A stretch of 58,586 nucleotides of DNA from Bacilli bacterium. Lineage in GTDB: Bacteria > Bacillota_I > Bacilli_A > RF39 > UBA660. The notes under the pieces are model-generated. The model was not told where the DNA came from. It ran no database searches and was given only the letters and a program-made list of their open reading frames with translations. Position numbers and translations under genes: made by a program. The stretch covers positions 1-58,586 of the forward strand of contig CAADWX010000023.1 in the NCBI GenBank assembly GCA_900752905.1. Direction: 5' to 3'. Position 1 is the stretch's first letter. The number at the start of each line of letters is the position of its first letter. Shown here in pieces: positions 8,740-48,538 of the stretch.

Positions 8740-9507
8740 ATGGAAAATATCTTAAAAATTGATAAAATTGAAAAATATTATGGCAATAAATCTAGTCTTA
8801 CAAAAGCAATTGATAACCTATCATTTGATGTTGAAAAGGGAGAATTTGTTGCAATAATGGGAGCAAGTGGCTCTGGAAAGACTACTCTTTTAAATTGTAT
8901 ATCTACAATTGATAAAGTTACATCTGGACATATTTATGTAGCAGGTAATGATATCACAAAATTAAGAGGAAATAGTCTAAATAAGTTTAGAAGGGAAGAG
9001 TTAGGTTTTATATTTCAAGATTTTAATTTACTTGATACTTTAACTGCTTATGAAAATATTGCTTTGGCACTTTCTATTCAAAATGTGAATTCAAGAGAAA
9101 TTGATACAAGAATTAAAAAAGTTGCAAAAGAACTTGATATTGTTAATGTACTTAATAAATATCCATATCAAATGAGTGGAGGTCAAAAGCAAAGAGTCGC
9201 TAGTGCAAGAGCAATAATTACTAATCCAAAGTTAATTCTTGCAGATGAACCAACAGGTGCATTGGATTCAAAGTCAGCTAAAATGCTTTTAGAAAAATTT
9301 GATTATTTGAATAAAGAATTACAAGCAACAATTCTTATGGTGACACATGATGCGTTTACTGCAAGTTATTCTTCAAGAGTCATATTTATCAAAGATGGCA
9401 AAATTTTTAATGAAATAATTAAAGGAACAAATTCTAGAAAAGAATTTTTTGATAAAATAATAGATGTTGTAACATTACTTGGTGGTGACTTAAACGATGC
9501 TCTTTAA
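8740..9507 (+). CDS. BceA-like ABC transporter ATPase
   Basis: The 255-residue protein is an MacB/LolD-type ATPase with Walker A GASGSGKTT (about 42-50), Q loop FIFQDFNLLD, signature MSGGQKQRVASARAI, Walker B LILADEPTGALDS and H loop MVTHDA. It powers the BceB permease, which releases lipid II or undecaprenyl-pyrophosphate from peptide antibiotics such as bacitracin. The ribosome binding site is AAAGGAGAAAG. The gene overlaps the permease gene by 11 bases. Divergence of function inside the family (bacitracin, nisin or other peptides) cannot be decided from sequence. Confidence 0.93.
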   Translation: MENILKIDKIEKYYGNKSSLTKAIDNLSFDVEKGEFVAIMGASGSGKTTLLNCISTIDKVTSGHIYVAGNDITKLRGNSLNKFRREELGFIFQDFNLLDTLTAYENIALALSIQNVNSREIDTRIKKVAKELDIVNVLNKYPYQMSGGQKQRVASARAIITNPKLILADEPTGALDSKSAKMLLEKFDYLNKELQATILMVTHDAFTASYSSRVIFIKDGKIFNEIIKGTNSRKEFFDKIIDVVTLLGGDLNDAL

Positions 9508-11543: not shown

Positions 11544-11575
11544 ATAAAAGAGGCTATTACAAGCCTCTTATTTTA
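11544..11575. terminator. Bidirectional rho-independent terminator
   Basis: AAGAGGC and GCCTCTT form the stem around an eight-base loop. The flanks are A-rich on one side and TTATTTT on the other, so it can serve the Bce operon and the opposing HTH fragment. Confidence 0.7.
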
Positions 11576-11824
11576 ATACTCCAATTTCTCCATATCAAAT
11601 AATGGAGAGTCATAAAAATCTTTAAGTTCTATTTTTAAAGTTTTACGTATTTTAAAGATAATTGTAGAACTTGGATTATCTACATTGTTTGCCAGTAATG
11701 CTCTTAATGTTGATGGTGCAATAGCAGATAATTCAGCAAGTTTATTTGGAGTGTAATTATATTTGTTACATAATTCAAGTATTGTTTTAATTATTTTGTG
11801 TATAATTTCTAATTTGTATTCAAA
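11573..11824 (-). pseudogene. XRE-type HTH regulator, 5'-truncated
   Basis: On the minus strand about 80 residues match a Cro/CI-type helix-turn-helix domain: IIKTILELCNKYNYTPNKLA, then AELSAIAPSTLRALLANN, then FKIRKTLKIELKDFYDSPLF. The likely N-terminal Met is missing: upstream of about 11818 the frame runs antisense through the recombinase fragment, and the only start is a TTG at 11923 without a ribosome binding site. The gene has lost its 5' end at the junction with that fragment. Regulators of this kind commonly control excision genes of integrative elements. Confidence 0.65.
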
Positions 11825-11996
11825 AAAGGAAGAAAAAATAAATGAACTAAATAGATTATTGATAGATGAGTTAATTGAAGATATTGTTGTTAGTGAAGAT
11901 GGTAATATAAAAGTAATATTCAAATATGAAGATAAATATTTTGAGGCTCTTGACTTTATAAATAAACAAAAATATGATATAATATTTTCAAGTTAA
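11820..11996 (+). pseudogene. 3' end of a large serine recombinase-like gene
   Basis: About 58 codons (KKEEKINELNRLLIDELIED, then IVVSEDGNIKVIFKYEDKYF and a Lys/Asp-rich tail) look like the extreme C-terminus of large serine recombinases of the TndX/TnpX type, where LI-x-x-I-x-V ... I-x-I-x-F-x-(F/Y) followed by an acidic helix is usual. Everything upstream, including the catalytic domain, is absent; the frame begins at the junction with the truncated HTH gene. It ends 46 bases before the first partial rbgA copy, which is where the recombinase gene of an integrated element is expected, next to an attachment site. The assignment rests on a short stretch. Confidence 0.5.
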
Positions 11997-12042: not shown

Positions 12043-12147
12043 GAAAGAAGTGATTAAAATGGATATGTACCAAAAAAGAGAAATGAGAAAAAATAAAAAA
12101 ATGAACGAAGATACAAAAAGTTTACCATCAACGAGTATCAACTGGTA
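12043..12147 (+). repeat. rbgA 5'-end repeat, copy 1 (attachment scar)
   Basis: A ribosome binding site (GAAGTGAT) and the first 89 bases of rbgA (ATG at 12059) are present up to the core ACTGGTA at 12141-12147, with two base changes from the functional copy at 15321-15425. After ACTGGTA the sequence switches to TAAACCGA, unlike rbgA. Confidence 0.95.
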
Positions 12148-12190
12148 TAAACCGAATTATGGAAAACTTCCTATGAAGTCTTATAAATAA
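12059..12190 (+). pseudogene. rbgA 5' fragment fused to cassette left end (43 codons)
   Basis: The rbgA start codon, ribosome binding site and codons 1-30 (ending STSINWY) are intact. The frame then continues into cassette sequence as KPNYGKLPMKSYK and stops at 12188-12190. It could still be translated as a basic 43-residue peptide. A small hairpin (AAGACT/AGTCTT) follows the stop. The same type of chimera occurs at 13858-13974. Confidence 0.85.
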
Positions 12191-12222
12191 AGACTTTTAG
12201 TCTTATTCCTTTTTACATTTTA
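12148..12222 (+). repeat. Cassette left end, copy 1
   Basis: Three blocks are shared in order with 13947-14021: TAAACCGA-TTATGGAAAA just after the core, CTTATAAATAAAGA (12180-12193) and CTTTTTACATTTTA (12209-12222). The intervening bases differ, so these are related but diverged element ends. Confidence 0.75.
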
Positions 12223-12313
12223 TAACTGGAAAATGATAGTTATTTTAAATCAAATAGATGTAATAACGACTTATGGAAACCTTTTATATGAAGCAATAAA
12301 TAAGGAGGTAGTA

Positions 12314-13125
12314 ATGAAGAAAATCGGAGATAGATATACTAATAATATTTTTGAAAATATTAAACATATAGATGAATATGGAAATGAATATTGGTATGCA
12401 CGCGAATTACAAAAAGTTTTAGAATATAAAGACTGGAGAAACTTCTTAAAGGTTTTAAATAAAGCAAAAGATGCTTGTAAAAATTCTGGGTTTAATATAG
12501 ATGAACAATTTGTTGAGGTCAACAGGTTGTCAAAAAGAAATAATAATGCCACTGCTAATATACAAGATTATAAACTTTCAAGATATATATGTTATTTAAT
12601 AGTACAAAATGCGGATTCAAGCAAAGAAGTTGTTGCTTTAGGACAAACCTATTTTGCTATTCAAACAAGAAAACAAGAAATAACAGAACAGGAATATGAT
12701 TCATTATCAGATGACGAAAAAAGATTTTATCAAAGCAAGGTAATTATACTTCGCAAAGAGTTGCCTCTGCAGCAGGTGTTAAAAATATGGCTGAGTTTCA
12801 TAATGCAGGGTATAAAGGTTTATATAATGTTGAAACAGTTGATGATATTTTTAAAAGAAAAAAATTACGCTATAGAGAAGATATTTTAGATAATATGAAT
12901 GAAGATGAATTAGTTGCTAATTTATTTAGAATAAATCAAACAAAACAAAAACTTTTAAAAGACAATGTACAAGGTGAGAAAGAAGCAAAAGATGTACATT
13001 ATGAGGTAGGTAAAAAAGTTAGGAAAGCAATTGCAGATATTGGTGGAATGATGCCTGAAGAAATACCAACACCTAAAAAGAGTTTGAAAGAACTTGAAAG
13101 ACAAAAGAAACAAATAGAAAATTAA
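12314..13125 (+). pseudogene. dinD: DinD (damage-inducible protein D), frameshifted copy
   Basis: The gene starts at ATG 12314 behind AAGGAGGT and matches the intact DinD copy at 14112 along its whole length (YWYARELQKVLEYKDWRNF, LSRYICYLIVQNAD, GQTYFAIQTRKQE, KRKKLRYREDILDNMNEDEL, GGMMPEE). Between 12735 and 12736 a 13-base stretch present in the other copy is missing, which shifts the frame; the remainder continues in frame from about 12787 to 13125. The product is therefore split into a protein of about 145 native residues with an aberrant tail and a 112-residue piece. In the segment around residues 50-85 it is closer to E. coli DinD (KAKDACKNSGFNIDEQF) than the intact copy is. Confidence 0.88.
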
Positions 13126-13204
13126 AGATAAAAAGAAACTAGAAAAAATGAAATGAAAAATTTTTAAATGCAATTATTGTAAAAAATAAAAGGAGGTATT
13201 TATT

Positions 13205-13837
13205 ATGAATAATAATAATTTAATGGAAATATTTTATTTAGAAACGCCATCTTTAGAACGTAAGAAAGAAATAATAAATTATATAAATGAATTTGTAGAA
13301 TATAAATCAGACATTAATGGAACTGGATCGTTGGATAAAATATTAGAAGGATATACTTTTGAACAGGCTTTAGAAAGATGTTTGAATATGGAAAACAGAG
13401 AATATGCAGAAAAAAATGGAAGATGCCAGGGAAAGACTTTTTTACTTATTAGAAAAAATGATAACAAAATTGTGGGTACAATCAACATTAGGTGGAATTT
13501 GACAGAAGAAATGAAACGATTTGGTGGAAATATTGGTTATGGAATAAGACCTACTGAAAGAAGAAGAGGATATAATAAGATAAATTTATATCTTGGATTG
13601 ATTGAAGCAAAAAAGATTGGACTGGATAAAGTGATGTTAGATTGTGACGTGGAAAATTTAGGTTCAAGTAAAACCATGGAAGCGTTAGGCGGAAAGCTAG
13701 AAAGAACTGAAATTGATCCATATGATGGAATACTAACAAGTGTATATTGGATTAATGTAGACGAATCGCTTGAAAAATATAAAGATGAGTATGTTAATTT
13801 TATTGATAAAAGTTATGGAAATAAGTTTATGAAATAA
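13205..13837 (+). CDS. GNAT-family N-acetyltransferase (cassette cargo)
   Basis: The 210-residue protein has an N-terminal helical region with a conserved-looking YTFEQALERCLNMENREYA, then strands KTFLLIRKNDNKIVGTINIRW, the acetyl-CoA motif GYGIRPTERRRGYNKINLYL, and the C-terminal VMLDCDVENLGSSKTMEALGG segment followed by YWINV. This is the layout of GNAT enzymes of the AAC/RimJ-like class with a long N-terminal extension. The substrate is unknown; it could be a resistance or toxin-type cargo gene. A near-perfect AAAAGGAGGT ribosome binding site precedes it. The gene is 80 bases after the broken dinD and ends just before the second rbgA-5' scar, so it is the cargo of the first cassette. Confidence 0.82.
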   Translation: MNNNNLMEIFYLETPSLERKKEIINYINEFVEYKSDINGTGSLDKILEGYTFEQALERCLNMENREYAEKNGRCQGKTFLLIRKNDNKIVGTINIRWNLTEEMKRFGGNIGYGIRPTERRRGYNKINLYLGLIEAKKIGLDKVMLDCDVENLGSSKTMEALGGKLERTEIDPYDGILTSVYWINVDESLEKYKDEYVNFIDKSYGNKFMK

Positions 13838-13841
13838 TTAA

Positions 13842-13946
13842 AAGGAAGTGATAAATAATGGATATGTATCAAAAAAGAGAAATGAGAAAAAATAAAAAAA
13901 TGAACGCGGATACAAAAAGTTTACCATCAACGAGTATCAACTGGTA
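13842..13946 (+). repeat. rbgA 5'-end repeat, copy 2 (attachment scar)
   Basis: AAGGAAGTGAT plus the first 89 bases of rbgA (ATG at 13858) end at the same core ACTGGTA as the other copies. It differs from the functional copy by three bases in the coding part, two of them changing Glu17 to Ala. Confidence 0.95.
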
Positions 13947-13974
13947 TAAACCGACTTATGGAAAATCCTATTAA
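13858..13974 (+). pseudogene. rbgA 5' fragment fused to cassette left end (38 codons)
   Basis: Codons 1-30 of rbgA are followed by KPTYGKSY and a stop at 13972-13974. The ribosome binding site is intact. It is parallel to the chimera at 12059. Confidence 0.85.
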
Positions 13975-14021
13975 ATCCCTTATAAATAAAGAAAAAGATA
14001 TTTAATACTTTTTACATTTTA
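13947..14021 (+). repeat. Cassette left end, copy 2
   Basis: TAAACCGACTTATGGAAAA follows the core, then CTTATAAATAAAGA (13979-13992) and CTTTTTACATTTTA (14008-14021), in the same order as at 12148-12222. Confidence 0.75.
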
Positions 14022-14111
14022 TCGCTTCTTTTTAGAAAAAAAATATAAAAAAGTTGAGGTAATGGGGACATAAGGAAAACTTTAATATAATTAATAGAAA
14101 TGGAGGTAGCA

Positions 14112-14966
14112 ATGAAGATAATTGAAAATAAATATTCTAACAATACTTTTGAAAATATAAAACATATTGATGATTATGGAAATGAATATTGGTATGCACG
14201 TGAATTACAAAAAGTATTGGAATACAAGGATTGGAGAAATTTTCAAAAAGTAATAGATAAAGCAGTTTTATCAGCAAATAATAGTGTTTCAAATGAAGAA
14301 GATTGGGTTGTTGAAGTCAACAATCCAATAAAAACTGGTAAAGGTAAAGAAGAATTTATTAAAGACTATAAACTTTCAAGATATATATGTTATTTAATAG
14401 TGCAAAATGCTGATCCAAGCAAAGAAGTTGTTGCTTTAGGACAAACATATTTTGCTATTCAAACAAGAAAACAAGAAATAACAGAACAAGAATATGATTC
14501 TTTATCAGATGATGAAAAAAGATTTTATCAAAGAAAATTAACAAAACAAGGTAATTATACGTTACAAAAAGTTGCTTCATCTGCTGGTGTTAAAAATATG
14601 GCTGAATTTCATAATGCAGGATATAAAGGATTATATAATGGAGAAACTGCTGATGATATTTTTAAAAGAAAAAAATTAAGATATAGAGAAGATATTTTAG
14701 ATAATATGAATGAAGATGAATTAGTTGCTAATTTATTTAGAATAAATCAAACTAAGCAAAAACTTTTAAAAGATAATGTGCAAGGTGAAAAAGAAGCCAA
14801 AGACATACATTATGAGGTTGGTAAAAAAGTTAGAAAAGCAATTGCAGATATTGGTGGGATGATGCCTGAAGAAATGCCAACACCTAAAAAGAGTTTAAAA
14901 GAACTTGAAAGAGAAAGGAAAAAATTAGAAATAAAAGAGCAAAAGAAACTTGAGGAAATAAAATAG
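14112..14966 (+). CDS. dinD: DinD, damage-inducible protein D
   Basis: The 284-residue protein is a full-length DinD, which in E. coli is SOS-induced and inhibits RecA filament activities. Matches to the family run throughout: GNEYWYARELQKVLEYKDW near the start (the BRO-N-like part), LSRYICYLIVQNADPSKEVV, GQTYFAIQTRKQEI, DDEKRFYQR, FHNAGYKGLYNGETADDIF, LVANLFRINQTKQKLLKDN and KVRKAIADIGGMMPEEMPTP, followed by a charged coiled tail. An ATG 12 bases earlier overlaps the GGAGGT ribosome binding site (14102-14107), so I use ATG 14112. No LexA-type palindrome is visible upstream, unlike E. coli dinD. It is the first gene of the second cassette. Confidence 0.92.
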   Translation: MKIIENKYSNNTFENIKHIDDYGNEYWYARELQKVLEYKDWRNFQKVIDKAVLSANNSVSNEEDWVVEVNNPIKTGKGKEEFIKDYKLSRYICYLIVQNADPSKEVVALGQTYFAIQTRKQEITEQEYDSLSDDEKRFYQRKLTKQGNYTLQKVASSAGVKNMAEFHNAGYKGLYNGETADDIFKRKKLRYREDILDNMNEDELVANLFRINQTKQKLLKDNVQGEKEAKDIHYEVGKKVRKAIADIGGMMPEEMPTPKKSLKELERERKKLEIKEQKKLEEIK

Positions 14967-14989
14967 TAATTTGGATGGAGGATTACAAA

Positions 14990-15298
14990 ATGAAAATAAT
15001 AACACTATGTGGAAGTTTAAAATTTCAAAAAGAGATGATGACAGTTGCTGAAACGATGGCATTAGAAGGATATTGTATTCTTACACCAGTATATCCAGTA
15101 TTAGAAAATAGGAAGGCAACAGAAGAGCAATTAATAAAATTGAAAGAGGCACATTTTAAAAGAATAGAATTATCAGATACTATATTGGTAGTAAATATAA
15201 ATAATTATATTGGAGAAAGTACAAATTTAGAAATAGATTATGCAAAAAAATTAGGTAAAGAAATTATATATTATACCGATTTAATCGAAAATAAGTAG
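14990..15298 (+). CDS. Nucleoside 2-deoxyribosyltransferase-like protein
   Basis: The 102-residue protein has the short Rossmann-like fold of the nucleoside deoxyribosyltransferase/DUF4406 superfamily: N-terminal MKIITLCGSLKF, a central helix EMMTVAETMALEGYCILTP, LSDTILVVNI and a C-terminal GESTNLEIDYAKKLGKEIIYY, in which the Glu of the GESTNLEI segment is at the usual catalytic position. Small versions of this fold are frequent in phages and mobile elements and may act on nucleotides or nucleotide-derived signals. GGAGG at 14977-14981 fits ATG 14990 rather than the ATG at 14975. It is the cargo gene of the second cassette, just behind dinD. Confidence 0.75.
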   Translation: MKIITLCGSLKFQKEMMTVAETMALEGYCILTPVYPVLENRKATEEQLIKLKEAHFKRIELSDTILVVNINNYIGESTNLEIDYAKKLGKEIIYYTDLIENK

Positions 15299-15302
15299 AG
15301 CA

Positions 15303-15318
15303 ACAACTTACAAGTTGT
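15303..15318. other. Small inverted repeat between cassette cargo and rbgA
   Basis: ACAACTT and AAGTTGT flank two bases. It lacks a T run and sits directly before the third rbgA-5' repeat. It could be a weak terminator or a protein-binding site at the cassette right end. Confidence 0.35.
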
Positions 15319-15320
15319 AA

Positions 15321-15425
15321 AAAGGAAGTGATTTAAATGGATATGTATCAAAAAAGAGAAATGAGAAAGAATAAAAAAATGAACGAAGATACAAAAAGTT
15401 TACCATCAACGAGTATCAACTGGTA
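15321..15425 (+). repeat. rbgA 5'-end repeat, copy 3 (functional)
   Basis: AAAGGAAGTGAT and the first 89 bases of rbgA are the same 105-base unit as at 12043 and 13842. Here the core ACTGGTA continues as CCCAGGTCACATGG into the intact gene. Confidence 0.95.
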
Positions 15426-16251
15426 CCCAGGTCACATGGCTAAAACTAAAAGACTAATAGAAGAAAAAATTAATTTAATAGATGTTGTATATGAAGTAAT
15501 AGATGCTCGTATGCCGTATTCTTCAAAGATAGTTGATATTGATAAATATATTAAAAATAAACCTAGAATTTTAGTTTTTACTAAAATGGACTTATGTGAT
15601 AGTATTGAAACAAATAAATGGATAGAATATTATGAAAGTAAAGGCTACAATGTTTTAGGATTTGATTTAAATAATGATAATATAAGTAAACTTACTGATT
15701 ATACTCTTAATATTATGCAAGATACTATGGATAAAAGAAAACAAAAAGGTATGAATGAAAGAAAGATAAGGGTTTTAATTGTTGGAATACCTAATGTAGG
15801 AAAATCTACTTTGATAAATAGATTAGTTGGTAAAAAAGCTGCTACTACGGGAAATAAACCCGGTGTTACAAAGAGTCTTGAATGGGTAAAAATAAATGAT
15901 TCTTTGGAATTGTTAGATTCTCCAGGAATTTTATGGCCAAAATTTGAAAATGAGACAGTAGCGTTTAATTTAGCAAGCCTAACTGCTATAAAAGAAGAAG
16001 TTCTTCCAATAGATGAGGTTATAATGTATATTTTACGCACATTAAAAACTTATTATCCAAAAATATTAAAAGAAAGATACAATCTTGATGAGGTTGAAGA
16101 CTATTTTGAATGTATGGAAGTAATAGGAAGAAAAAGAGGATGTCTACAAAAAGGTGGTATTGTAGATGATGAAAAAGTTTATAGTGTAATACTTAAAGAT
16201 ATAAAAGATGGTGTTATTAAGGGAATTACTTTTGATAGGTTTGGTGAATAA
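15337..16251 (+). CDS. rbgA: Ribosome biogenesis GTPase RbgA (YlqF)
   Basis: The 304-residue protein is a circularly permuted GTPase needed for late 50S subunit assembly. Motifs occur in permuted order: DAR (56-58, G5), TKMD (82-85, G4), GIPNVGKST (150-158, G1), a Thr-containing G2 in GNKPGVTKS and DSPG (194-197, G3), followed by the helical C-terminal domain. The conserved RbgA body begins with INWYPGHMAK at residue 27; in Bacillus the protein starts about there, so residues 1-26 are a basic extension. This extension, the start codon and the ribosome binding site are exactly the part that is repeated upstream. It is the first gene of a tight operon with mrnC and rlmB. Confidence 0.96.
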   Translation: MDMYQKREMRKNKKMNEDTKSLPSTSINWYPGHMAKTKRLIEEKINLIDVVYEVIDARMPYSSKIVDIDKYIKNKPRILVFTKMDLCDSIETNKWIEYYESKGYNVLGFDLNNDNISKLTDYTLNIMQDTMDKRKQKGMNERKIRVLIVGIPNVGKSTLINRLVGKKAATTGNKPGVTKSLEWVKINDSLELLDSPGILWPKFENETVAFNLASLTAIKEEVLPIDEVIMYILRTLKTYYPKILKERYNLDEVEDYFECMEVIGRKRGCLQKGGIVDDEKVYSVILKDIKDGVIKGITFDRFGE

Positions 16252-47461: not shown

Positions 47462-48538
47462 ATGTTTGGATTAGAAATGGATCAATTAGCAAAAATTAAA
47501 GTTATCGGAGTTGGTGGAGCTGGAAATAATGCTGTAAACCGTATGATTGAATCAGGTGTTAAAGGTGTAGACTTTATTGTTGCTAATACTGACTTACAAG
47601 TTTTAAATAATTCAAAAGCAACTAATAAAATACAAATTGGAATAAATCTTACAAATGGTCTTGGAGCTGGAGCTAATCCAGAAATTGGAAAAGAAGCTGC
47701 AATAGAGAGCAAGGATGAATTAGAGGCTGCTCTACAAGGAGCTGATATGGTATTTATTACTTGTGGAATGGGTGGTGGAACAGGTACAGGTGCTGCTCCT
47801 GTTATTGCTGATATTGCTCAAAATTTAGGAGCATTAACAGTTGGTATTGTAACAAAGCCATTTTCATTTGAAGGTAAGAAAAGGATGGATCATGCTCTTG
47901 CTGGTATAAAAGAATTAAAACAACATGTAGATACTTTAATAGTTATTCCTAATGATAGATTAAGAGATATTATTGATAAATCTACACCTCTTGTAGAATC
48001 ATTTAAAGAAGTAGATAATGTGCTTAGACGTGGTGTTCAATCAATTTCAGATTTAATCGCTGTTGCAGGACTTATTAATCTAGATTTTGCAGATGTAAAA
48101 GCAGTTATGGAAAAACGTGGTAATGCATTAATCGGTATTGGTATGGGAGTTGGAGAAAATAGGGCAACAGAAGCTGCTAAACAAGCTGTAACAAGCCCAC
48201 TTCTAGAAGCAAGTATAGATGGTGCAACAGATGCAATTATAAATGTTACTGGTGGAGCTAATCTAACTTTATTTGAAGTAGAAGAAGCTGCTGAAGTTAT
48301 TCGTGAATCTGCTAAAACTGATATAAATACAATATTTGGTGCAGTAATAAATGAGAATTTAAAAGATGAATTAATAGTAACTGTAATAGCTACTGGATTT
48401 GATAAAAAATCAGAAGAACAAGAAAAGAAAGAAAAAGTTGAAGAACCAGAAAGAAGATTCCAAACTATTGATGAAGAAGATAATAGTGAAGATGATGGTG
48501 ATATTCCAACATTTTTAAGAAGAAAAAGAGTATTTTAA
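47462..48538 (+). CDS. ftsZ: Cell division protein FtsZ
   Basis: The 358-residue tubulin-like GTPase forms the division ring. [18 protein letters not shown], the tubulin signature [10 protein letters not shown], the T7 loop [11 protein letters not shown] and [14 protein letters not shown] are all present. A short acidic linker (about 315-345) leads to the C-terminal peptide [14 protein letters not shown] that binds FtsA. GGGAGG fits ATG 47462; the longer frame starting at 47426 inside ftsA is not used. Confidence 0.98.

Follow-up and report, generated by a model that had tools for sequence, protein, structure and literature searches.

Integron-like cassette arrays at the 5' end of rbgA in gut Bacilli, most likely inserted by serine recombinases

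Integrons are the textbook ordered collection of small genes and are tied to tyrosine recombinases: they comprise a tyrosine integrase (IntI), an attI site, and attC cassettes. The 5' end of rbgA is used by streptococcal ICEs with tyrosine integrases (PMC4701971, PMC6079316, PMC8571831), and the attB of Tn5253 is given as the opening 20 nt of the coding sequence together with the 63 nt that precede them (PMC6079316). In other accounts, serine-integrase IMEs and ICEs with one or three large serine recombinases (LSRs) lie at rumA, mutT, and hsdM (PMC4701971, PMC5704250), and serine-recombinase IMEs are reviewed as disrupting dispensable genes. The literature searched, which left most subscription journals and all of bioRxiv outside its reach, yielded no serine-recombinase cassette array. 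A sequence-only reading of the DNA described here had known of no description of rbgA as an integration site of this type, which has to be qualified in view of the streptococcal elements.

A direct-repeat search of the window (the whole 58,586-nucleotide stretch of Bacilli DNA analyzed) found three copies of 109 nt each, at 12058, 13857, and 15336, with spacings of 1799 and 1479; copies 2 and 3 are 96% and 86% identical to copy 1. These are the three rbgA 5' ends, with two cassettes between them, that the sequence-only reading had described. The rbgA start codons lie at 12059, 13858, and 15337, and the Trp29 codon (TGG) lies at 12143, 13942, and 15421. All three 5' ends break in the Trp29 codon, and the first two run, as that reading had also noticed, into a related non-rbgA end, which proved to be one type of site of ~80 bp. 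When a profile built from 27 sites, both window sites among them, was run over the whole window at a threshold of 0.01, it matched solely 12130-12225 (E 1.2e-15) and 13929-14024 (E 1.4e-15). The features, all on the + strand, are as follows.

11823..11996, +, LSR C-terminus remnant (protein match to the LSR beside rbgA in the relative G217; LSR profile)
12059..12145, +, rbgA 5' unit copy 1, start codon to Trp29, severed from the gene (sequence reading, repeat search)
12130..12225, +, element end site 1 (attL type), with TG core, CTTATAAATAAAG block, and TTTTTACA block (profile E 1.2e-15, in training alignment)
12145..13943, +, cassette 1, about 1.8 kb (limits are the two core TGs)
12233..13125, +, dinD-like (Bro-N) gene of cassette 1, frame broken into two ORFs, 12233-12889 and 12787-13125 (ORFs, domain search)
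13205..13837, +, GNAT acetyltransferase, cassette 1 cargo (PF13302, 8.4e-8; relative in cassette L156c0)
13858..13944, +, rbgA 5' unit copy 2 (sequence reading, repeat search)
13929..14024, +, element end site 2 (profile E 1.4e-15, in training alignment)
13944..15422, +, cassette 2, about 1.5 kb (limits are core TGs, site profile)
14100..14966, +, dinD-like (Bro-N) gene of cassette 2, intact (PF02498, 7e-9)
14975..15298, +, DUF4406/nucleoside deoxyribosyltransferase-like protein, cassette 2 cargo (Pfam weak, below cut-offs)
15337..15423, +, rbgA 5' unit copy 3, in use (sequence reading, repeat search)
15337..16251, +, rbgA, intact target gene, with putative attB in codon 29 (ORF, domain and protein comparison)

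The fragment before copy 1 that had been called serine-recombinase-like is real. Residues 21-70 of ORF 11823..11996 are 50% identical over 50 aa to the rbgA-adjacent LSR of G217 (E 1.6e-13 in a 32-sequence set), the match stops 3 aa short of the C-terminus of that LSR, and the LSR profile gives an E value of 1.7e-11; Pfam alone is weak (DUF4368, 0.039). The fragment probably marks where an older element, now decayed, had its right end, and the best explanation of the window is the order LSR-element remnant, unit 1, cassette 1, unit 2, cassette 2, and unit 3 with rbgA.

In relatives (one genome per species), rbgA arrays are, as judged by sequence, a widespread site-specific system. A search of genomes for partial rbgA starts followed by the end site had been proposed, and at E<=1e-6 the model from the 27 training sites finds matches in 56 of 196 genomes, with sites in rows of up to 7; in a shuffled control of 782,512 bases, the two best matches had E values of 0.14 and 0.38. 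The array contigs of one genome (G104) are unlinked to its rbgA and are possibly misbinned. A strict IUPAC pattern of the site gave 1 match in 195 genomes, and the site model was used instead; a 136-nt DNA query matched 88 of 292 genomes, nearly all through short AT-rich matches. In a viral collection, dinD was found at 0 loci and the site pattern had 0 matches, and the one relative of the array LSR (36%) and 29 RhuM loci contained the site at E<=0.01 in 0 of 30 cases.

Element end points are fixed across the arrays of relatives. The junction triplet of the 77 sites with E<1e-6 is TGG (56), TGC (7), TGA (6), TGT (5), or another (3), and TG is the sole identity at the junction common to cassette ends and rbgA. 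Because 74 of 77 sites retain TG while the third base varies, the break lies inside codon 29 and not at codon 29/30, where it had been placed; the claim of one fixed break stands, and the proposed core ACTGGTA is too long. The Tn5253 attB presumably ends about 2 nt beyond the corresponding Trp codon of the S. pneumoniae N-terminus. The conserved site of ~80 bp, with blocks near +40 and +70, is longer than a serine-integrase half-site, which counts against integration by LSRs. TATAAT-like hexamers lie 20 nt past its third conserved block in 13 of 75 sites, and other spacings recur too. No consensus fold was found, with no pairs in 27 sites, and we therefore reject a folded site, whether as RNA or of the attC kind. 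The third block itself, from its sequence, may be a cassette promoter, and phased A-runs would fit equally well.

We consider it very probable that the rbgA 5' end is the attachment site of LSR-using integrative elements in gut Bacilli, with arrays that accrete toward rbgA. Repeated site-specific integration by elements that each bring a fresh rbgA 5' end, as the first reading had supposed, is supported by comparison of the relatives, which reveals fixed ends, arrays, empty sites, common 5' units, and LSRs adjacent to rbgA; we infer that the LSRs perform the recombination. Exchange would take place at TG, within the codon for the Trp of the INWYPGH motif. The right end of an element would consist of a ribosome binding site and roughly the opening 8-32 codons of rbgA, and integration would sever the resident 5' end and at once supply a replacement, so that rbgA, an essential gene, would remain intact. 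Because each insertion would rebuild the target, new elements would enter after the last 5' unit of the row, ahead of the rbgA body, and the tandem array would grow toward rbgA. Its members would be whole conjugative elements (with a DUF6870-LSR-LSR right end), small one-LSR cassettes, and cargo-only cassettes of about 0.5-2.5 kb.

In many loci, an LSR immediately precedes an rbgA 5' unit. Of the 12 sequences that match the array LSR most closely, itself counted, 11 sit no more than about 1 kb ahead of an rbgA 5' unit, and G104:C32 is without a visible unit. A recombinase scan of 28 genomes, selected for their arrays or LSRs, found PF07508 recombinases <=5 kb upstream of rbgA in 13 of them. 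PF07508 at E<=1e-8 detected none in the array genomes G056 (4-5 sites) and G035 (1 site), and the PF07508 recombinases of G047, G065, G073, and G060 are not near rbgA; such MAGs may be incomplete. The rbgA-adjacent LSRs form three groups, separate from 10 of 11 other LSRs; they include a single type of ~410 aa and a pair of 564 and 527 aa. Resolvase, Recombinase, and zinc-ribbon domains occur in 6/6 scanned array or rbgA-adjacent LSRs; this domain set is known from the relatives, and the window keeps only the C-terminal remnant. A regex scan of 67 loci was insensitive, as it missed most LSRs later found by phmmer, and gave one tyrosine candidate. LSR1 of L112 was rejected as the array recombinase; it is located in an insertion within a rhuM gene. 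DUF6870 directly precedes the LSR pair in 8/8 pair loci (some near-copies of each other), and the protein could be a directionality factor.

On a single contig, G217:C10, a 38-kb conjugative element starts at a site and ends in a DUF6870-LSR-LSR module that abuts rbgA. The genes between site and rbgA encode a relaxase (PF03432, 1e-5), a T4SS coupling protein, a VirB4-like ATPase, ParB, and the LSR pair, which identifies it as a related element with recombination genes and predicted transfer genes on the same putative att sites. ICE-like stretches in L189, L197, and L199 also have their left ends at sites.

Most of the 67 bounded cassettes encode no recombinase. The arrays may be a serine-recombinase counterpart of the integron, a reading we put forward tentatively: the Trp codon would be the platform, the LSRs of visiting conjugative elements would capture and reshuffle recombinase-less cassettes in trans, and each cassette would bring a replacement N-terminus, and would therefore be kept as the start of an essential gene. 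It is possible, though we are doubtful, that the small cassettes are instead relics of successive ICEs or IMEs that decayed by deletion to short cis-mobilizable elements, with no capture in trans; this concerns only the origin of the small cassettes and is compatible with accretion by LSRs. Accretion and decay to CIMEs is a described route (PMC5704250), the left element of the window is a remnant, and the first dinD is broken; moreover, DUF6870, the neighbor of the LSR pairs, is found as 12 ORFs inside cassettes, and no LSR was detected in two genomes with arrays, G056 and G035. Decay fits less well with cassettes that are compact (median 1425 bp, 29 of 67 with a single forward ORF) and exact at both ends, with the recurrence of near-complete cassettes in different neighborhoods (L103c3/L195, 84% nt identity over 84%; L123c4/L208, 75% over 83%), and with a 2.5-kb cassette in G102 that bears its own LSR.

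We think it improbable that recombination at the site is the work of a Tn5253-like tyrosine integrase whose gene lies elsewhere and that the LSRs are bystanders. Tn5253 does enter the rbgA 5' end by such an enzyme (PMC6079316), and all 28 scanned genomes, including the two without a detected LSR, have tyrosine recombinases somewhere, housekeeping Xer included. However, a PF00589 tyrosine recombinase was found within 8 kb upstream of rbgA in 0/28 genomes (the nearest is at 8.7 kb, in G214), whereas LSRs abut rbgA in many loci, and cassette ends and rbgA agree at the junction in TG only.

The sequence-only reading had suggested looking for empty sites in relatives, and 3 of the 20 loci where lepB or rplS was found are empty, with rbgA directly after lepB and the Trp codon 27-112 bp past the lepB match (L142, L146, L154). 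Seven have detected sites and gaps of 1.5-12.3 kb, and in 10 lepB or rplS lies 1.4-6.4 kb ahead of rbgA with no site detected. In L005, the left 5' end is unrelated in sequence and the right one is of the window type; its site plus dinD is 86.5% identical to the window over 1062 nt, and the rbgA proteins of the two contigs are 53% identical. The 45-nt 5' units are identical in five pairs (L001/L002, L106/L124, L106/L127, L124/L127, and window/L004) whose rbgA bodies are 63-72% identical (mean of 300 random pairs, 69%). L001, L002, and L006 come from one metagenome, with contigs that start at the unit, and L124 begins 50 nt before the core, so their identical 5' ends may have arisen in assembly. 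A simple tandem duplication of the 5' end of rbgA, followed by divergence, would suit the 86-96% identity of the window copies and would have been favored by variable end points or a lack of empty counterparts; it is rejected as extremely unlikely, because the ends are fixed, empty loci exist, the left unit of L005 differs from its right unit, and in other arrays the 5' units differ among themselves and the intervening cassettes are mostly unrelated.

The cassettes were most likely inserted by a serine recombinase, in an array that is integron-like and appears to be built from different parts. If this is true, serine recombinases would provide a second route to an architecture of the integron kind. 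The arrays are frequent in the sampled, little-studied gut Bacilli, and they are easily lost from short-read assemblies because repeats break contigs; contigs end <=300 nt from rbgA on the 5' side in 24/86 cases and on the 3' side in 1/85 (Fisher 2.8e-7). Their cargo (acetyltransferases, nucleotide-pool enzymes, and candidate defense genes) is tied to the beginning of an essential gene for ribosome assembly. The arrays also offer LSRs whose putative attB lies in a conserved gene.

Tn5253 and the streptococcal rbgA ICEs have in common with the arrays the target gene and end, the restoration of rbgA by target duplication, and conjugative elements; they differ in their tyrosine integrase and Xis and in having no cassette array in the descriptions consulted, and no tyrosine integrase was found at the element end in the 28 scanned genomes. 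Serine-integrase IMEs and ICEs likewise encode LSRs, with tandem LSR genes, but at other targets and with no replaced 5' end of an essential gene; in the reviewed serine-recombinase IMEs dispensable genes are disrupted, whereas here an essential gene is struck and rebuilt. As in CIME accretion and ICE tandem arrays, elements with att sites at their ends follow one another at a single target, and CIMEs also keep att sites without a recombinase and stack beside a functional element; here, up to 7 sites lie in a row, mostly in units of 0.5-2.5 kb. The integron is similar in its ordered, small, often one-gene cassettes at one site, its very mixed cargo, and a newest cassette that presumably lies beside the platform. 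It differs in the IntI-type tyrosine integrase beside its arrays, in place of which we find LSRs (PF00589, 28 genomes), and in its folded attC sites, for which the 27 sites have no conserved counterpart; and, unlike those of the integron, each cassette here ends in the coding 5' end of a host gene.

Direct reading and a repeat search of the window confirmed three copies of the rbgA 5' end (starts 12059, 13858 and 15337), each breaking in codon Trp29. In the ORF translation, copy 3 reads MDMYQKREMRKNKKMNEDTKSLPSTSINW and then continues into rbgA (YPGHMAK), whereas copies 1 and 2 leave rbgA, as the sequence-only reading had described, and read Y-K-P-(N/T)-Y-G-K through to a stop. That reading had also placed a serine-recombinase-like fragment before copy 1, and this was borne out: the final ~57 codons of an ORF there match the C terminus of a large serine recombinase (LSR) of relative G217 (50% over 50 aa), in which this LSR abuts rbgA. 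The intervals bounded by two cores (the TG of the Trp codon), which we call cassettes, and the ORF near the remnant are as follows.

11573-11923, minus strand: ORF with a Cro/C1-type helix-turn-helix, in overlap with the region of the LSR remnant
12145-13943: cassette 1, with a frame-disrupted Bro-N/DinD-like gene and a GNAT acetyltransferase
13944-15422: cassette 2, with an intact DinD-like gene and a small protein that has weak similarity to DUF4406/nucleoside deoxyribosyltransferase

The helix-turn-helix ORF and the LSR remnant possibly belong to one decayed element.

We found rbgA in 213 of 245 genomes and fetched 60 rbgA regions and later 20 array regions. A simple scan of the rbgA regions revealed tandem partial 5' units, each followed by a common end (the site). 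Alignment of 27 such ends, two of them from the window, showed three shared parts at near-constant spacing: the TG of the junction, a CCCTTATAAATAAAGG-like block whose centre lies ~40 nt further on, and a third block near +70 (TCTTGCA or TTTTTACA); no conserved fold was found in these ends. At loci L123, L189, L197 and others, an AT-rich tract past the third conserved block has, by eye, A-runs ~10-11 nt apart, which suggests that the DNA may be bent there. Of 196 genomes, 74 have a match to a model of this site at E ≤ 1e-3 and 56 still do at E ≤ 1e-6 (a count by eye that includes training genomes), with strong matches in rows on contigs G025:C5 (7), G047:C8 (7) and G086:C14 (6); the latter two were used in training and G025 was not. 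At E < 1e-4 the 80 loci and the window contained 81 sites, distributed over 38 of the 81 stretches, and a crude control in which the 80 loci were shuffled two bases at a time gave only two matches (E 0.14 and 0.38). The core could be read at 64 rbgA loci: 23 of them have a site or LSR within the stretch, and the rest have neither (19 with 3 kb or more upstream, 22 with less); L005, to which the site search of this comparison did not extend, carries a site.

Empty-site counterparts, expected from the sequence-only reading, do exist: at L142, L146 and L154 the signal-peptidase gene, which adjoins the ribosomal protein L19 gene, is immediately followed by rbgA. A gap before rbgA with no detected site was seen at 10 of 20 loci. 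Ten pairs among 63 loci agree in at least 90% of the 45 nt that precede the core, and five pairs that are identical there show 63-72% identity over the following 300 nt, no more than random pairs (69%); window/L004 and L106/L127 are left once contig-end cases are set aside. Of 86 rbgA matches for which the 5' distance could be measured, 24 have a contig end within 300 nt on that side; for the 3' side the count is 1 of 85 (Fisher 2.8e-7; 112 of the 213 rbgA matches covered), as expected if the 5' stretch is repeated. The codons before Trp number 9-32 in loci with a site or LSR versus 4-28 in loci with neither and at least 3 kb upstream (Mann-Whitney p 0.004). These comparisons indicate that the rbgA 5' end moves.

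A scan of named genomes for rbgA gave seven loci. L005 (MAG RUG14259, titled Erysipelotrichaceae) begins with a 5' end of different sequence up to ACTGG, followed by TATAAACCGACTTATGGAAAA, dinD, a membrane-protein-like ORF and rbgA with a 5' end of the window type; its site and dinD are 86.5% identical to the window in DNA, and its rbgA protein is 53% identical to that of the window. The contigs of L001, L002 and L006 begin 17-38 nt ahead of the rbgA start codon and, by eye, have one 5' unit in common, which may be an assembly effect at a repeat because all three come from one metagenome.

An LSR immediately precedes rbgA or a 5' unit at L100, L106, L109, L127, L135, L191, L198, L203, L233 and L235-L238 and lies within ~1 kb of one at L102, L112, L239 and L241; at L189 a broken LSR lies 1.7 kb from the next 5' unit. 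The three LSR domains were present in all six LSRs scanned. Of the best 12 matches to an array LSR in 147 genomes (E ≤ 4.3e-76, query included), 11 were placed in this way (within ~1 kb before an rbgA 5' unit), and among the other matches listed with a known rbgA contig, only three first members of LSR pairs were near rbgA by eye. In a tree of 32 LSRs, the rbgA-adjacent single, second and first LSRs form three groups (86/89, 99/100 and 100/98), with one of nine "single" rows (G104:C32) lacking a visible unit and LSR1 on a very long branch; ten LSRs from elsewhere fall outside these groups. A DUF6870 protein immediately precedes the LSR pair at all eight pair loci (L100, L106, L127, L135, L191, L233, L237 and L238, some of them near-copies of each other) and the LSR at none of ten other loci (the L109 contig begins at the LSR), making it a candidate directionality factor. 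In 28 genomes picked for arrays or LSRs, a PF07508 recombinase lay within 5 kb upstream of rbgA in 13 and a PF00589 recombinase in none. Two of the 28, G056 and G035, had no PF07508 match anywhere, and for this reason our confidence in an LSR-driven process, while still high, was lowered slightly.

Very probably, then, LSRs integrate elements at the TG of the rbgA Trp codon, and the elements accrete, each bringing a new 5' end. The element circle would carry the junction 5' unit-TG-end site and would recombine with rbgA at the TG; the resident 5' end would stay behind, joined to the element's end site, the element's own 5' unit would become the new start of rbgA, and the next element would integrate in like manner. 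The rbgA product is described as essential in excerpts of PMC6079316. Because the element restores the 5' end of a target coding for an essential protein, we infer that integration spares the host and keeps attB available.

Conjugative elements also occupy the site. Contig G217:C10 has the site at 9422 and, beyond it, ParB, a VirB4-like ATPase, a relaxase, a T4SS coupling protein, an Eco57I-type restriction gene, DUF6870, an LSR pair and rbgA at 47,554, an element of ~38 kb from site to rbgA on one contig. A second LSR pair with its 5' unit adjoins it on the left, and the elements are thus stacked. In G025, one contig has an ICE with a relaxase and coupling protein that begins at a site, and the contig with rbgA opens with an LSR triple; we infer that these are one element. 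The ICE encodes an EF-G-like protein (L210 4085-6007; PF00009 and EFG domains); on visual comparison it resembles ribosomal-protection tetracycline-resistance proteins. At L190 7628 (G217:C3), a second site precedes another ICE-like stretch on a 160,882-base contig without the rbgA found in G217, reflecting either a strain mixture or a secondary site.

Cassettes are mostly small. The 67 intervals with both ends, from 32 loci, span 528-9481 bp (median 1425), and the long ones may conceal undetected sites. They contain one (29 intervals), two (15), three (14) or four (6) forward ORFs, and one interval each has six, nine and zero. Among the 140 forward ORFs are RhuM (17 in 12 loci), DUF6870-like (12 in 8), Bro-N (10 in 8), DinD (5 in 4), GNAT (5 in 5, largest cluster) and LSR (5 in 4) proteins and 66 singletons. 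Pfam and PADLOC were run on 61 of 77 cluster representatives, and the matches listed, for the 25 commonest families, include acetyltransferases, deaminases, dUTPase, queuosine salvage, histidine phosphatase, a PDDEXK nuclease, several PADLOC PDC families, a type I specificity subunit and a DRT-type reverse transcriptase. Nearly complete copies of cassettes also appear in other arrays. A 2.5-kb cassette of G102 (L241 4772-7300, flipped orientation) consists of a site, a single LSR, a KilA-N protein and an rbgA 5' unit, and may represent a self-sufficient element of this kind at a very small size. At L112 (788-10102), an insertion with LSR1 (558 aa) splits an array rhuM gene, so a different serine-recombinase element seems to target rhuM itself; on visual inspection two ORFs of the insertion resemble Rep and FtsK, but neither has a Pfam match at 1e-4.

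The sequence-only reading knew of no such integration at rbgA, and this stands in part. We found no description of a serine-recombinase array of small cassettes in the literature searched, and if capture in trans were shown, the cassette system would merit its own name. That ICEs, IMEs and CIMEs accrete is already established, according to excerpts of PMC5704250. The rbgA 5' end itself is on record as an ICE site in streptococci, with tyrosine integrases (excerpts of PMC4701971), and Tn5253 is reported there in passages of PMC6079316 and PMC8571831. As far as these passages go, the two systems share the rbgA 5' end, but the streptococcal ICEs use tyrosine integrases, whereas in the gut Bacilli LSRs lie beside rbgA at many loci.
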